A DNA stretch of 35,268 nucleotides, taken from IMG/VR virus record IMGVR_UViG_3300020457_000032, positions 1 through 35,268 of that record; one strand, 5' to 3'. The translations under genes were made by a program, and so were the position numbers. The number at the start of each line of letters is the position of its first letter. The stretch's first letter is position 1. This document shows, in pieces, positions 9,492-34,761 of this stretch. This DNA comes from a virus. The notes beneath the pieces are model-generated. The model searched no databases. It was not told where the DNA came from and saw only the letters and a list, made by a program, of their open reading frames with translations.

Positions 9492-10386
9492 AAAAGTCCA
9501 ATGCTAGAAAGAACTTATCAACTTCTTTTGCCTGAGATACCCATGCTCTAAATATATCCTTATTTTCATCCATACAAATTAAATGGTTAGCACCTCGTCT
9601 GAATACTTGACCTGTCCTATTATTAGATTCAATAACAGAACCTACTTTAAATATATCACCTGCCAAATACTGCTCTCTTATACTTCTCTCATCAACAGGT
9701 ATTACATTCATCATCACGTAAGTATATAATGTACCGTTCTGTTGTAATGCTAACTCTGAGATTTCTTTTGCCCTTGATGATCTAACGACGATATTAATTG
9801 CATCAAACCCGTTCTCATTAAGTGATTGGAGGACATCGAAAATGGTTTCTGCATTTTTATCGTCGATGATTGACTCGCTAATCTCAGGATATGCATTTTT
9901 CAATTCCTCAATGTTACTATCCCTACTGGGAAATATGTAATAAAATTCACCACCTGATACTTCTTCTACTGTAGCAAGAATATTATCAGAGGTTTCTGGA
10001 CTATCAAATTTATCAAACGCAATAGTAAGAGGAGTATCTCTACTCATTTGATCCAAAGCAGCTTTGGTATCACCATTACTTGCTTGGGTTTCTTTAGCAT
10101 CTGGAAGAGTAGGTTCTATTGCCCTAGCCTTAGAAGCAAGTGAAGGACCAGCGTTCTTACCTGCAGATGTTACTGCTGATGTACTGCGATCAGAATCATG
10201 CTTTTCATCTTCTTCACCCCCACGGGCACCAAACATCTTTAGTTCACCCTTAACAGTCTTAGCTTTCAGACTGCCTTGGCGATCATACCAATCTCCGTGA
10301 CCGTCTCCTACCAAACCCAATCTCTTCGCTTGAGAGGATGCTTTGGTAACTCTTGCTTCTGTTATGAATGTTCGGAACTGCTTCAC
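9490..10386 (-). CDS. Cyanophage modular protein with replaced or divergent central domain
   Basis: The start codon is GTG, chosen because MKQFRTFITEARV is a typical opening of cyanophage virion-associated proteins. An N-terminal module of about 60 residues (LGLVGDGHGDWYDRQG, AKTVKGELKMFG) is followed by a low-complexity Ser/Ala/Asp linker to about residue 110. A central alpha/beta region (about 115-225) follows, and then a small C-terminal beta module with GQVFRRGANHLIC and FRAWV. In related cyanophage proteins I recall the same ends flanking a cytidylyltransferase with an HxGH motif. No HxGH is present here, although IAFDKFDSPETSDN occupies the place where that motif would begin. Function uncertain. 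Confidence 0.75.
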   Translation of the reverse strand: MKQFRTFITEARVTKASSQAKRLGLVGDGHGDWYDRQGSLKAKTVKGELKMFGARGGEEDEKHDSDRSTSAVTSAGKNAGPSLASKARAIEPTLPDAKETQASNGDTKAALDQMSRDTPLTIAFDKFDSPETSDNILATVEEVSGGEFYYIFPSRDSNIEELKNAYPEISESIIDDKNAETIFDVLQSLNENGFDAINIVVRSSRAKEISELALQQNGTLYTYVMMNVIPVDERSIREQYLAGDIFKVGSVIESNNRTGQVFRRGANHLICMDENKDIFRAWVSQAKEVDKFFLALDF

Positions 10387-10579
10387 GTATCTTTTTAAAG
10401 ATTTGATGTTTATTTTTCTCGATGAAAGCTAATCCAATAACTCTCATGTGTTTATATTTATCATCCTCAGTGATAGCATAGAAAAAGCACATAAAATCTT
10501 CAATCTCTTTCTTCATGATCTGTCTTCTTTTTGGTCTATCTTTATAGACTGTAATTAATTCATCAATAAAATCGTTCAT
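10283..10579 (-). CDS. Conserved hypothetical protein, long overlap with next gene
   Basis: This 98-aa protein begins MNDFIDELITVYKDRPKRRQ and is mostly helical, with Tyr, Phe and Lys. The first 64 or so residues look like a genuine small domain. The last 34 are read from DNA that also encodes the N-terminus of the next gene in another frame, and they become Arg-rich (GRRRSRR). The ATG overlaps the stop of the upstream 276-aa gene as ATGA, so translation is coupled. The 104-base overlap is unusual for this compact genome. Function unknown. Confidence 0.65.
   Translation of the reverse strand: MNDFIDELITVYKDRPKRRQIMKKEIEDFMCFFYAITEDDKYKHMRVIGLAFIEKNKHQIFKKIREAVPNIHNRSKSYQSILSSEEIGFGRRRSRRLV
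10455..10462 (-). promoter_or_regulatory. Possible GATAAATA late-type motif inside a gene
   Basis: GATAAATA occurs 69 bases upstream of the GTG of the modular protein, within the preceding gene. In AT-rich coding DNA this could be chance, so confidence is low. Confidence 0.25.
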
Positions 10580-11406
10580 GTTACTGGTTCTATTCTAAGG
10601 ACAGCTTCATTGATTGGTTGATTTTTTGTATCTGGATCAAGGTAACCCCTGTTCTTCAAACGAATGTCAACGAAAACTCTATCCATCATACCATTAATCA
10701 TAGCATCAGTGATAGGTGATACTTGTGGTGTACTATCTAGAATATGAGTTGCACACCTATCATTACTAACACCAAATACATTTCCACCAGTCAAAGACTC
10801 ACGTATAAACTCCCTTTTGAAAGCAATGTATAATCTGTCTGGTTGTGGTTGTTGTCTTGAACCTAATATACGTTGTAGATCTTGAAACTCACCCTGCTGT
10901 TTTCCTCTTTCTAATAAAGGTCTTATCTGTGTCTGTGGTAGTTTTCCCAAATCCATAGTATCTCCCATCCAATCTAATATCTCAGCAACCCTCATAACTT
11001 CTCCACCACCCATACCACCAGCAATAGCAATCTTTTGTAATACCATATTCATAACAGACACACTACCCTGAATACCAGCACTACCTAACTGCCAAGCATC
11101 ATCCCATTTCATAGAACATCTATACCTAGTTCCATTCTTTACAAATAAAACATCAGTCTTTGGTTCTGGATTTCTACCACCAAGTTGTTTAAATGACTTA
11201 TAAAACTGTTGGCTAGTTGGATTGGTTCGTTCAACATTCCATATATTATTCATAAATCTTTGAGCAGTATCAAAGACTTGCTGATCTGAAATTTTACTTC
11301 TATGTAATGATAACCTACTTTCTTCATCTAATGTAGGATCTTCAATCCTACTCAAAGCCTGTGCCATTACAGCATGTTCATATTGATTACCCCTAGAAAT
11401 TGCCAT
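10576..11406 (-). CDS. Late protein with possible PD-(D/E)XK nuclease-like motif
   Basis: This 276-aa protein has no clear full-length family that I recognise. In its middle it reads PEPKTDVLF, about ten residues, then RCSMKW, DDAWQLGSAG. The pattern P-K-T-D-V, beta strand, S-x-K, then Q-L-x-S is what PD-(D/E)XK restriction-type nucleases show around their metal site. The flanking regions are helical, with MGGGEVMRVAEILDW around residue 135. It has a strong ribosome site (GGAGG) and an AATAAATA motif just upstream, placing it among late genes. It could be a virion-packaged nuclease or simply a structural protein. Confidence 0.75.
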   Translation of the reverse strand: MAISRGNQYEHAVMAQALSRIEDPTLDEESRLSLHRSKISDQQVFDTAQRFMNNIWNVERTNPTSQQFYKSFKQLGGRNPEPKTDVLFVKNGTRYRCSMKWDDAWQLGSAGIQGSVSVMNMVLQKIAIAGGMGGGEVMRVAEILDWMGDTMDLGKLPQTQIRPLLERGKQQGEFQDLQRILGSRQQPQPDRLYIAFKREFIRESLTGGNVFGVSNDRCATHILDSTPQVSPITDAMINGMMDRVFVDIRLKNRGYLDPDTKNQPINEAVLRIEPVT

Positions 11407-11424
11407 AAAAACCTCCGCTTCAGA

Positions 11425-11432
11425 TATTTATT
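11425..11432 (-). promoter_or_regulatory. T4 late-promoter-like octamer AATAAATA
   Basis: AATAAATA, one base from TATAAATA, lies 19 bases upstream of the 276-aa late gene, ahead of its GGAGG ribosome site. Confidence 0.45.
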
Positions 11433-11433
11433 T

Positions 11434-12651
11434 TTATGCCATACCCTTCAATATATCACCAGTTTCTTTAGCTTCTTTAGAATCCTCTCTAAGATAAGTA
11501 TTACCATGTTCCTTTGGATCTGGTAAAGGTGTTGAATAAATCTCACCTTGAAGCTCTTTACCTACACCAAAGGTTTTCTTGATAACCATCTGCCAATCAT
11601 AAGTATCATCAAACCCATCACAGTTAGATTCAAAATTTATACCTGGTTTTGTTCTCCTTCTATTTGATGAAGGGGTTTTCAATTTATAATCACGATAATG
11701 AGCATCACCATTCTGTTCATATATCCATTGTTTAGCCGCCCATTTATATTCTCTTAGTTTATTCCAACTACTATTCTCATCTTGATTAGTTATAGACCAA
11801 CGATTGAAATTAGGTGTATCATAAAAATGGAAAGCATTACTATGGGGTGGTAGTGGAAAGATATAACCATACATCTTCTTACAACGAACAAGTATCTGCT
11901 GGTACTTGAACATAAAACTACATGCCCAATGCCATTGTTTTAAATTAACATCATCTTTATTCAAAACAAAATGAGTACTTTCATGAGTTGCAGCCTGTAC
12001 CCATTCAGGAATAGTTTCTCTATAACTCTTATTTCTTGTCTCCTCATCAAATAAAAATACTCTACCAGTTCCAAATATCTGATCTCCACACTCACCTGTA
12101 GCAAAAATGTTATGAGAATCTTTAGCAAAAGGTTCTAAACCTTTCCTCAACGTAACACCTGCTTCATGTTCTGACTCTTCATTTAGATTATGATCCTCAT
12201 GAAGCTTCAAGGTAACATTAGGATATTCACCTCTTAGTATATCATCATAGATCTTTGGTGCCTCAGTATATACTTGTGGATCACAATGAAGTGTCAAAGG
12301 TACTCCAGTTCTTTGTAAAGCAAAAAATACTACTGTACTATCAATTCCACCTGACCACATTATATGAATATTTCTATCACCAGCCTGATCTAAACAGAGT
12401 TGTGCAGAATCAGCACACACCTCATCGAAATTCATATTAGTATATGTGTCCTCAGGTACTGGAGATATAATTTCGTAATCTCTTTTAGTTGGTAACAAAC
12501 CAGCACGACATACACATCTGGTATTGAAATACCTATTCAATAAATTTTCTTCTGGCAAAAAATAAAAGTTTGCCTTTGGTCCCATAATGTACTTAGGACT
12601 AGACAAATATCTATTGGGCCATTCATATAAACTGTCGTTTCTGATCACCAT
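11434..12651 (-). CDS. Asparagine-synthase-like PP-loop ATP-pyrophosphatase
   Basis: A PP-loop ATP-binding motif is present (SGGIDSTVV, around residue 137), together with a second asparagine-synthetase-type motif, GECGDQIFG, comparable to the GGDE-(L/I)FGG signature. Such enzymes adenylate a carboxylate or similar group before amide or amidine transfer. No N-terminal glutaminase domain with Cys at position 2 is visible; the first 130 residues instead look like a separate domain. The frame opens upstream to 12768, but that passes through the terminator of the preceding gene, so the ATG at 12651 (405 aa) is the likely start. The substrate is unknown. Confidence 0.8.
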   Translation of the reverse strand: MVIRNDSLYEWPNRYLSSPKYIMGPKANFYFLPEENLLNRYFNTRCVCRAGLLPTKRDYEIISPVPEDTYTNMNFDEVCADSAQLCLDQAGDRNIHIMWSGGIDSTVVFFALQRTGVPLTLHCDPQVYTEAPKIYDDILRGEYPNVTLKLHEDHNLNEESEHEAGVTLRKGLEPFAKDSHNIFATGECGDQIFGTGRVFLFDEETRNKSYRETIPEWVQAATHESTHFVLNKDDVNLKQWHWACSFMFKYQQILVRCKKMYGYIFPLPPHSNAFHFYDTPNFNRWSITNQDENSSWNKLREYKWAAKQWIYEQNGDAHYRDYKLKTPSSNRRRTKPGINFESNCDGFDDTYDWQMVIKKTFGVGKELQGEIYSTPLPDPKEHGNTYLREDSKEAKETGDILKGMA

Positions 12652-12695
12652 GATGAGATCATAATAAGTTTGATGTTCCGTATAGTATATATCCA

Positions 12696-12724
12696 ATAAA
12701 AAAAGACGGGGTTTCCCCCGTCTT
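12696..12724 (-). terminator. Strong intrinsic terminator after TRAP-like gene
   Basis: A perfect 9-bp stem (AAGACGGGG pairing with CCCCGTCTT) closes a GAAA tetraloop and is followed on the minus strand by a T run. The GNRA-type loop and the U-tract are typical of efficient rho-independent terminators. It ends the transcript of the TRAP-like gene and separates it from the PP-loop gene. Confidence 0.9.
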
Positions 12725-12738
12725 CCTTTCCACATTCG

Positions 12739-12762
12739 ACCCTTATGGCATCCATAAAGGGT
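12739..12762 (-). other. Second hairpin upstream of the terminator
   Basis: ACCCTTTATGG pairs with CCATAAGGGT with one bulged T and a three-base loop. It lies between the TRAP-like stop codon and the terminator and lacks its own T tract. It may protect or help fold the 3' end of the mRNA. Confidence 0.6.
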
Positions 12763-12791
12763 GCACACCGAATCTTTATTTACTGATATGA

Positions 12792-13748
12792 CTAGGCATT
12801 TTTGATGCTGTCAACAAGTCCTTCAGAGAACTCATCAGCAAACTTATCATAGATGTATGCTGTTTTCTCTTGGAATCGAGATCTTTCTGCCTCGGACATA
12901 ATGTTAACTTCGATACCTTCATCCGCACATTGTGATTGTACTAGGTCGATATCTTCAACAGACCATACTCTTTCTGCCTTGGCAGCATCGAATGATGCAG
13001 CTTGAACTTTCTTTTGAAGCTCAGGATCAAGGTCTTTCCAGAAAGAATTAGATGTGAGAATGGTTGTTAAGAACAGACTGTGTTGAGTATCGTTGATAGT
13101 ATTCATAACCTCATTTTGCTTCAGTCCATAGAAGCGAGGATATGTGGACTCACCACCAACAATTTCTCCACTCTGTACACCTTCGTTGATTTGCTCTAGT
13201 TCGATAGGAACAGATACACCACCTACTGCTTCAATTGTTTCTTGAGCAATTGGTGACTTGTTACAACGTAGTTTAACACCAGCAAAGTCTTCAATCTTTT
13301 CTATCTTTACATTAGCAGGGATGTTTCTAAAACCACCTGAGTATGTAAATGCAAGACCTTTGACTCCACCTTTTTCTCCAAGTCTAGAATCTCCGAGTCC
13401 ATCAAGAAGTTGCTCTCCTATAGGACCTTCAAAAACCCGTGTAGCGTGATCGTGATCTTTAAAGAGGAACGGAAGATCTAAAGCCCACATATCTCTATTA
13501 TGCTTACGTCCTAGTGTAGACGTATACATTTGTGAAACTTCGATTTTACCTTCACTCATAAGACTAAGCAAATCGTGCTTAGTTACTGCCTCGCCATTGT
13601 TATACTTATCTGAATATTCTGAGAGTGTAAGAATTTCAAGATTAAGTTCACCAGGAGCAGTTTGCTCAATGGTTTCCTTGAAACGGTTTGCAGCTCTTAG
13701 AAACAGTTCAATAGGCTCGTGTGCCAAAACCCAACGTACTGTTTTCAT
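12792..13748 (-). CDS. TRAP-type (DctP-like) solute-binding protein without signal peptide
   Basis: This 318-aa protein follows the TRAP periplasmic binding protein pattern. There is an early Met-rich helical segment (MSEGKIEVSQMYTS), the segment FAGVKLRCNKS whose Arg aligns with the carboxylate-binding Arg of DctP/SiaP proteins, and the later segments EGVQSGEIVGGEST and TQHSLFLTTIL. It starts MKTVRWVLAHEPIE, directly with the first domain strand, so no signal peptide or lipoprotein box exists. No TRAP membrane subunits are nearby. It has an exact TATAAATA motif, an AAGGAGGA ribosome site and its own terminator, making a self-contained and probably strongly expressed late unit. Its cytoplasmic or virion role is unknown. 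Confidence 0.85.
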   Translation of the reverse strand: MKTVRWVLAHEPIELFLRAANRFKETIEQTAPGELNLEILTLSEYSDKYNNGEAVTKHDLLSLMSEGKIEVSQMYTSTLGRKHNRDMWALDLPFLFKDHDHATRVFEGPIGEQLLDGLGDSRLGEKGGVKGLAFTYSGGFRNIPANVKIEKIEDFAGVKLRCNKSPIAQETIEAVGGVSVPIELEQINEGVQSGEIVGGESTYPRFYGLKQNEVMNTINDTQHSLFLTTILTSNSFWKDLDPELQKKVQAASFDAAKAERVWSVEDIDLVQSQCADEGIEVNIMSEAERSRFQEKTAYIYDKFADEFSEGLVDSIKNA

Positions 13749-13755
13749 ATTCGGT

Positions 13756-13763
13756 TCCTCCTT
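13756..13763 (-). promoter_or_regulatory. Strong ribosome binding site of TRAP-like gene
   Basis: AAGGAGGA stands seven bases before the ATG at 13748. This is one of the two best ribosome sites in the window and fixes the start, which excludes a longer product with a signal peptide. Confidence 0.85.
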
Positions 13764-13793
13764 AATTTAATTTGATCAATACTTATACGGTAT

Positions 13794-13801
13794 TATTTAT
13801 A
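13794..13801 (-). promoter_or_regulatory. Exact T4 late promoter octamer TATAAATA
   Basis: TATAAATA matches the T4 late consensus at all eight bases. It overlaps the stop codon of the DUF2061 gene and lies 46 bases upstream of the TRAP-like start codon. Confidence 0.7.
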
Positions 13802-14051
13802 GAACTACGAAATCCTTATCAGTAGTAGTTCTCCTCTGCCAATCATTCCTGTTCCACAATCTTTCGTGGAGAATGTATAGAGTGGAGTTAATGACGAGAG
13901 CCATAAGTCCAATTGTAAGACCCTTCATAGGGTTTCCTGAAACGATCCAACCAATGAAAGAGTTGGTTACCATCATCCAGCTACGCCAAGTAACTGCTTT
14001 AGTGATTGTACGAGGAAAACGCTCGAACCACTTAGGATTTGAAAAAGACAT
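13797..14051 (-). CDS. DUF2061 family small membrane protein
   Basis: This 84-aa protein has the DUF2061 pattern: KAVTWRSWMMV, a first membrane helix, a short NPMKG turn, a second helix (GLTIGLMALVINSTLYIL) and then HERLWNRNDW. Two transmembrane segments are predicted. The family is found in many bacteria, but I know no biochemical function for it. It directly precedes the TRAP-like gene and may be a host-derived membrane gene. A GATAAATA motif lies 95 bases upstream. Confidence 0.8.
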   Translation of the reverse strand: MSFSNPKWFERFPRTITKAVTWRSWMMVTNSFIGWIVSGNPMKGLTIGLMALVINSTLYILHERLWNRNDWQRRTTTDKDFVVL

Positions 14052-33923: not shown

Positions 33924-34292
33924 TTAGAAACTGTACTTGAATCCAGACTTAACTTGATACTTAGTATCTCCACTGTCATTGTCAGTTCCTTCTACAGAAA
34001 CGTTAGCAGAAACGGCATCAGAAACTTTGAAACCTAATCCACCAGCAACGAAGAGATTAGTTGTACCATCAGCACCATCAGTAGCGATAGTCTTAGTACC
34101 ACCTTCTACGAAGTATGAGTTAGAAGACTCACCGAACTTATCAGAATAGCCAACTTTAGCTTTGATTTCATTCTTTGTGTAGTCTGTTCCTACGAAGTCA
34201 GTCTTAGTATTCACACCAAGATAAGGTCCTGCCATTGCTGAAGAAGCAACAAAAGGAGCAGCAGCAACTGCTGCGATAGCGATTTTTAACAT
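33924..34292 (-). CDS. Secreted outer-membrane beta-barrel-like protein, copy 1
   Basis: This 122-aa protein has a signal peptide (MLKIAIAAVAAAPFVASSAM, cleavage after Ala-Met-Ala, mature protein starting Gly-Pro-Tyr). The mature part has alternating polar and hydrophobic strands and ends KSGFKYSF, the terminal Phe that many outer membrane barrels use for BAM recognition. It is a paralogue of the neighbouring gene (same AGPY start, closing SF). It could be a small porin-like protein or a surface-exposed virion protein. No enzyme motif. Confidence 0.8.
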   Translation of the reverse strand: MLKIAIAAVAAAPFVASSAMAGPYLGVNTKTDFVGTDYTKNEIKAKVGYSDKFGESSNSYFVEGGTKTIATDGADGTTNLFVAGGLGFKVSDAVSANVSVEGTDNDSGDTKYQVKSGFKYSF

Positions 34293-34355: not shown

Positions 34356-34733
34356 TTAGAAACTGAACTTAGCTCCTACTTTACCAGAGAAGTCTTTGTC
34401 GTCAGTTGGAGTTGTCTGACCATAAACTTCACCGTAAACAGAAACGCTCTCAGAGATTCCATAAGAACCACCAAGGTATCCAGCGATTTCTACATCACCG
34501 AACTCGTCAGCAGCTTCAGTATGAGGAACTGTTGGTCCTACAGAAGCGTACCAGTCAAGACCGCCTTCAGTTGAACCTTCGTATCCAAGTTGAAGTTCGA
34601 GATTACCAGAAGCGTAATCTGCATCAGGATATGAACCATTTGCTTCTACATTCACATAAGGACCAGCAAAAGCGGCTCCAGATAATAGAAGAGGTGATGC
34701 TGCAAGAGCAGCGATTGTTGATTTGATTGACAT
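34356..34733 (-). CDS. Secreted outer-membrane beta-barrel-like protein, copy 2
   Basis: From the ATG at 34733 (125 aa) it has a signal peptide (MSIKSTIAALAASPLLLSGA, cleavage after AFA before GPYVNV). Amphipathic strands follow (NLELQLGYEG, IAGYLGGSYG) and the end is GKVGAKFSF. The ATG at 34754 would add seven residues before the basic part of the signal. The gene is preceded by a sigma70-like promoter and a long leader hairpin. Two paralogues side by side suggest duplication and divergence. A small porin-like or surface protein is the best guess. Confidence 0.8.
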   Translation of the reverse strand: MSIKSTIAALAASPLLLSGAAFAGPYVNVEANGSYPDADYASGNLELQLGYEGSTEGGLDWYASVGPTVPHTEAADEFGDVEIAGYLGGSYGISESVSVYGEVYGQTTPTDDKDFSGKVGAKFSF

Positions 34734-34761
34734 GATTGTTGTCGTTTCTCGCATGGGGCAA

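Follow-up and report, generated by a model that had tools for sequence, protein, structure and literature searches.

A TRAP-type solute-binding protein without an export signal is usually encoded beside a PP-loop synthetase gene in a family of uncultivated aquatic phages

We describe a phage family that encodes a full-length solute-binding protein of the TRAP transporter type (DctP) with no export signal, commonly next to a gene for an asparagine-synthetase-like PP-loop enzyme. Judging from sequence, a leaderless DctP is encoded by many aquatic phages that have yet to be cultivated, one of them being the cyanobacterial virus from which our window derives (the window is the whole stretch of DNA analysed, 35,268 nucleotides of IMG/VR record IMGVR_UViG_3300020457_000032). 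We propose, with a probability of roughly one half, that this DctP is a cytoplasmic carboxylate-binding protein that works with the neighbouring PP-loop synthetase. The features of the window on which the argument draws are the following.

11434-12651, minus strand: PP-loop (SGGIDS) synthetase of the asparagine/beta-lactam synthetase fold, about 405 aa (family linkage, structure model)
about 12697-12729, minus strand: putative intrinsic terminator, a G+C-rich hairpin with a T-run (RNA fold)
12740-12762, minus strand: predicted first hairpin after the DctP stop codon (RNA fold)
12792-13748, minus strand: leaderless TRAP solute-binding protein of the DctP type, 318 aa (PF03480 match, TRAP binding-protein fold, N-terminus)
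13757-13763, minus strand: ribosome-binding site AAGGAGG, 8 nt from the DctP ATG (sequence)
13794-13801, minus strand: candidate T4-type late promoter octamer TATAAATA (sole exact copy in the window)
13797-14051, minus strand: DUF2061 small membrane protein (PF09834, E 5.1e-13)
33924-34292 and 34356-34754, minus strand: two outer-membrane barrel proteins of the cyanophage type (Phage_OMP, PF24653), each with a clear signal peptide

A first-pass annotation of this DNA had described a 318-aa DctP-like protein that starts directly at its first domain, and both points hold. The reading frame begins with an ATG at 13748 and its stop codon ends at 12792. The PF03480 profile matches residues 17-304 of the product with E 2.4e-42 (145.7 bits against a cut-off of 23.4), and NCBIfam NF037995 is likewise matched above its cut-off. 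Seventy-eight PDB sequences match at about 17-26% identity, and the matches listed are TRAP-type binding proteins. An AlphaFold2 model (pLDDT 83, pTM 0.85) aligns with solved TRAP binding proteins from model residue 1 onwards, with Z-scores of 30-32 over 291-298 residues. The N-terminus, MKTVRWVLAHEP, is the start of the mature domain; according to the model, its first residue lies where exported relatives would begin once the signal peptide has been removed. We conclude that the gene encodes a full-length TRAP (DctP) solute-binding protein. Gene content identifies the window as part of the genome of an uncultivated T4-like cyanophage: among its products are also a RecA-family (UvsX-like) protein, a DnaB-type helicase and, by a weak match to the chlorophyll a/b-binding family, a protein of the high-light-inducible (Hli) type. 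Among the viral loci, a cyanobacterial host was inferred for the window alone.

A scan of IMG/VR with the window protein identified 60 viral loci with DctP relatives, and a scan with a wider alignment found 302 viral stretches encoding such relatives, of which the best 80 were kept. All are contigs assembled from metagenomes, and some of them are incomplete and may be mis-sorted. Cellular contamination of a single contig is ruled out by the 302 viral stretches, the late promoters and the phage neighbours. We found no close relative of either DctP or the PP-loop gene in the cultured phages searched, where the matches to DctP fell below 30% identity and were unannotated short or bacterial records. 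In the mainly open-access literature covered by a search, phage TRAP binding proteins that lack a signal were not described.

The absence of a signal peptide, which had been read from the window alone, proves to be conserved across the viral family. The codons in frame upstream of the window ATG are few and specify non-hydrophobic residues. A misplaced start that hides a signal peptide is ruled out, since this upstream frame closes within a few residues and N-termini agree throughout the family. Scoring leaders with our own hydrophobicity rule and a threshold, rather than with SignalP, we found no hydrophobic leader among viral copies with a readable N-terminus; these copies, together with some cellular ones, make up 138 leaderless reading frames in which the nearest Met lies 2-6 residues ahead of the first conserved segment. 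A leader was present in 13 copies, all cellular and mostly from Bdellovibrionota. Leaderless cellular homologues exist too, at 35-53% identity. In a phylogenetic tree, most signal-less proteins form one large group of 36-37 rows (SH-aLRT 86-89, which is not decisive) beside the leader-bearing Bdellovibrionota, and two changes of leader state suffice to account for the distribution.

Loss of the signal is not a general property of these viruses. The Phage_OMP proteins of the window, which serve as an internal control for export, have signal peptides, and TAXI and TctC proteins in related phages carry typical leaders; hence, these phages do use Sec signals. Moreover, exported importers (TAXI-TRAP, TctABC) are encoded by some relatives, so it is DctP specifically that lacks the signal. 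The membrane subunits of a TRAP transporter were also sought. As the first reading had it, the window contains neither DctM nor DctQ, and it thus lacks both these subunits and the signal peptide or lipoprotein leader that the binding protein of a functional TRAP transporter would have. Beyond the window that statement has to be qualified, because permeases of the TRAP or tricarboxylate type do occur in some relatives, where most are found close to a leader-bearing receptor of their own. Among 10 larger related contigs, which may be incomplete, DctM was absent from nine and DctQ from all ten; the sole DctM belongs to a TAXI-type fused TRAP permease. We ruled out this DctM, from locus L041, as a partner of DctP, since the fused permease is encoded on the opposite strand, next to a TAXI receptor of its own. 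The standard TRAP fold and arginines would suit a working receptor that is delivered to the periplasm in some unconventional way and cooperates with the DctQM of the host. We consider this highly improbable, given a viral family without signal peptides whose related phages nonetheless export TAXI and TctC with leaders, and given that DctM occurs in only 1 of the 10 larger relatives and DctM and DctQ are absent from the window. A TRAP fold without an export signal that is conserved across a large viral family means that periplasmic capture is almost certainly not the job of this protein. Thus, a role for viral DctP in periplasmic transport is very unlikely, and the earlier suggestion of a non-periplasmic function is upheld.

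We next consider how the gene is expressed. A near-ideal ribosome site had been noted, and the AAGGAGG sequence bears this out. The exact late octamer had also been put forward; it is indeed present, but base composition predicts about 2.8 chance copies of TATAAATA per strand in 35 kb of this A+T-rich window, so the octamer alone proves nothing. However, in 21 of the 32 distinct viral lineages, the 90 nt preceding DctP contain NATAAATA, described as the late promoter of cyanophage S-PM2 (PMC2984593); the share among random 90-nt windows is 2.3%. DctP therefore has the upstream NATAAATA typical of T4-type late genes, and this conserved element supports late expression, as first proposed. Downstream, the predicted hairpins and terminator are borne out by RNA folding: the 103-nt stretch at 12690-12792 has a folding energy of -37 kcal/mol (z -4.0). 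With a strong terminator between them, DctP and the PP-loop gene of the window are probably not on one transcript. The description of an isolated transcription unit is nonetheless accurate only for the transcription signals of the window's own lineage; in the family, the gene belongs to a conserved cluster and often overlaps the next gene.

That next gene is where the earlier annotation, which saw no partner nearby, fell short. The gene immediately downstream of DctP in the window (its start placed by comparison with locus L001) encodes the asparagine-synthetase-like PP-loop protein, the most constant neighbour in the family. Of 35 viral clusters, 30 have a PP-loop gene no more than 4.5 kb from DctP, as do 24 of the 26 viral clusters with at least 2.5 kb of flank on both sides; none of 13 leader-bearing cellular clusters has one. 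These counts include related phages, an effect of kinship that clustering at 93% identity lessens. Thirteen contigs of 48-250 kb hold one to four PP-loop genes each; all 13 have a copy no farther than 2.5 kb from DctP, and in 11 the distance is at most 160 nt. The two genes usually adjoin directly, with a 4-nt overlap in most of L024-L041. Their relative position varies: the PP-loop gene may be downstream, with an overlap or a gap, upstream (L034, L052, L054) or on both sides (L094, L102, L129). The surroundings of the pair differ as well, being near uvsX/gp41, terminase or tail genes. Two cellular signal-less loci, L072 and L076, also carry the pair; a PP-loop gene is lacking in the neighbourhood of six of the eight cellular signal-less copies. 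We conclude that the PP-loop synthetase is likely the functional partner of DctP.

Two other readings bear directly on these observations. If DctP were a virion or tail-associated protein, with the binding fold used for adhesion or structure, the late promoter and the tail or head genes near several relatives (L108, L145, L160) would be expected. We regard this as improbable, since the gene is found variously among replication, terminase and tail genes, no fusion to structural domains was seen, the pocket residues are conserved and signal-less homologues occur in cells. Alternatively, DctP could act in the cytoplasm as a sponge or sensor for a host carboxylate (such as a TCA-cycle acid signalling nitrogen status) and, by binding it, lower or report its free level, the PP-loop gene being a mere genomic neighbour. 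The lack of an export signal throughout the viral family, the high copy number that a late promoter would give and the cyanobacterial phage context (Hli-type and Phage_OMP proteins) all speak for such a role. On the other hand, the PP-loop linkage is very constant although the loci are rearranged, and DctP has no attached regulatory domain. We judge this reading unlikely, while ranking it first among the alternatives to a joint function with the synthetase.

The sequence of the PP-loop protein scores below family cut-offs; its class was assigned from the motif and the predicted fold. The SGGxDS residues (S100, G101, G102, D104 and S105) are invariant in the family alignment, with a few additional copies degenerate in the motif. 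The structure model best matches AsnB (Z 14.0, 212 residues aligned, rmsd 3.4) and beta-lactam synthetase (Z 13.3), followed by carbapenam synthetase (Z 11.4) and then GMP synthetase, indicating a predicted synthetase-domain fold. We set aside an identity as the queuosine enzyme QueC, for which matches were weak and local. AsnB, beta-lactam and carbapenam synthetases adenylate carboxylates. The phage protein shares with them the PP-loop and the synthetase domain (Z 11-14), but it has about 400 aa, falls below the cut-offs of these families and lacks the N-terminal glutaminase-like domain: no Ntn/glutaminase-like domain was found in the about 90 residues ahead of the PP-loop, and structural matches begin at the linker or the synthetase part.

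We then examined whether a ligand site is retained. The first-pass annotation had singled out the Arg of FAGVKLR, and this residue, R161, is invariant (36/36) in signal-less DctP and lines up with the conserved Arg seen in three TRAP proteins of solved structure (4p47, 4p1l, 4mx6); in SiaP, the conserved carboxylate-binding arginine of TRAP proteins is R147. R141 is Arg in 33 and Lys in three of the 36 sequences, and H10, H99, H101, E200, R205 and H223 are invariant. In the TRAP GxEN motif, the usual Asn is replaced by Ser in all 36, so the ligand may be unusual or its binding altered. Hence, as far as sequence alignments can tell, the pocket residues of signal-less DctP are preserved and the pocket is not a standard one. 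So many invariant polar residues (H10, H99, H101, R161, E200, R205, H223), together with a cytoplasmic location, might suggest that the fold has become an enzyme acting in the same pathway; periplasmic-binding folds have turned into enzymes elsewhere, as in THI5/NMT1 and MqnA. However, H10, H99, H101, E200, R205 and H223 are equally invariant in exported cousins and are therefore not marks of new catalysis, which makes an enzymatic DctP distinctly unlikely. The alternatives thus rank, in falling order, as sponge or sensor, enzyme on the binding-protein fold, virion protein and unconventional transporter receptor.

In six loci (L054, L055, L056, L058, L059 and L060), DctP is encoded as two separately started genes, of which two examples are listed.

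L054, 5983-6945: split DctP
L059, 5983-6938: split DctP

The split lies just ahead of the strand that bears the conserved Arg. Its junctions are of three kinds: TAATAAATG in four loci, a 4-nt ATGA overlap in L059 and a longer out-of-frame overlap in L060. Between L054 and L058, dN is 0.008 and dS 0.17 in the N-terminal half, and dN is 0.019 and dS 0.31 in the C-terminal half; both halves are under purifying selection. The three different junctions and the low dN/dS in both halves rule out a frameshift or assembly error. We consider stop-codon recoding at the double TAA unlikely, since neighbouring long genes are open in the standard code, and it is also disfavoured by the switch of frame at the junction in L059 and L060. 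Neither half has a leader. Two leaderless chains must meet to make one pocket, which fits a cytosolic protein.

Other neighbours recur less regularly. Twelve of the 35 viral clusters have a DUF2061 gene close to DctP, and of the recurrent neighbour families, only DUF2061 and the PP-loop gene are seen near DctP in the window. Carboxylate importer genes lie within 7 kb of DctP in 14 clusters. Six loci (L041, at 10199-12461 on the minus strand, and also L025, L026, L028, L037 and L039) encode a fused TRAP permease (TIGR02123) and a TAXI receptor with a signal peptide; in L041-like phages, this importer adjoins the terminase gene. In L094/L099, L137, L157, L148, L106 and L059, leaderless DctP is near a TctC with a leader, in some cases along with TctA and TctB. 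Genes for 2OG-Fe(II) oxygenases, fatty-acid desaturases, the beta-keto acid cleavage enzyme (BKACE) and radical SAM proteins also recur near DctP, in single loci; the BKACE genes are at 6999-7850 in L054 (PF05853, E 1.7e-83) and 7409-8269 in L106, both on the minus strand. All of these neighbours, importers included, are non-universal and hence suggestive. A second DctP was observed in L048 (4538-5599; strongly diverged and likewise leaderless), L148 (8980-9999) and L160 (7989-9908). Among cellular loci, inspection by eye placed the DctP-subfamily genes of L077, L082, L083 and L085 near a NitT/TauT-type ABC transporter and MBOAT/SGNH-like acyltransfer genes, with no TRAP permease near DctP. 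A conserved 200-aa protein without a Pfam match, 2OG-oxygenase-like by eye, adjoins leaderless cellular DctP in L084 (5372-5974), L074 (556-1161) and L076 (9356-9982), and an MFS-like transporter lies beside the leaderless cellular DctP locus in L073, L074 and L084.

Our preferred explanation is that DctP would act in the cytoplasm of the infected cell as a soluble TRAP-type binding protein, closing around a small carboxylate. The PP-loop enzyme would use ATP to adenylate a carboxylate, which would then be joined to an amine, and DctP would serve, late in infection, to keep the acid or an intermediate bound, to shield it or to pass it on to this enzyme. A phage-encoded importer (TAXI-TRAP or TctABC) may supply the acid in some related phages, where 2OG-Fe(II) oxygenases, desaturases or BKACE may modify it further. 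The lack of export, the PP-loop linkage, the enzyme class, the pocket and the split DctP all favour a carrier that serves the synthetase, as does a precedent: OppA2, a solute-binding protein, is essential for clavulanic acid biosynthesis and is a proposed member of a multi-enzyme complex (PMC7830376). The OppA1/OppA2 case resembles that proposed for DctP in that a binding protein is needed in a biosynthesis that uses a PP-loop synthetase; OppA is an ABC-type peptide-binding protein of a different family, from Streptomyces, and so the likeness is by analogy only. Against a carrier stand the cellular signal-less copies without a PP-loop gene (6/8), the Ser in GxEN, the terminator between the genes, the synthetase's lack of an ammonia-supplying domain, and the fact that adjacency of phage genes can be inherited rather than functional. 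More tentatively, and as the less probable of our two proposals, the genes may form a phage intracellular pathway of biosynthesis or modification, in some phages fed by an importer, in which a formerly periplasmic receptor serves as cytoplasmic substrate carrier for a synthetase and a new small molecule or modification results.

Viral DctP has in common with TRAP binding proteins of the DctP family (PF03480; SiaP, TeaA, DctPAm) the full-length fold and the carboxylate-binding Arg. It differs from them in having no signal peptide and no DctQ/DctM, in the Ser of GxEN, in its pairing with a synthetase and, in one group, in being split into two chains. The importer gene tctA, reported in a SUP05 phage (PMC4164917), is, like DctP, a marine phage gene related to carboxylate transport, but its product is an importer in the membrane whereas DctP would be intracellular. 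Overall, the first-pass reading was right in seeing a late-expressed TRAP fold without an export signal, but it missed the partner gene.

A DctP match in a viral metagenome would ordinarily be read as a nutrient-uptake gene, since solute-binding proteins are taken to be periplasmic by definition. Here, the receptor has persisted in a large viral family after loss of its export signal, and it appears to be coupled to an acid-activating enzyme. If this is true, the pair would constitute a phage metabolic module without a counterpart among the cultured phages searched, and the annotation of transporter-like genes in viromes would change. The system also offers a direct test of which acid aquatic phages manipulate late in infection.
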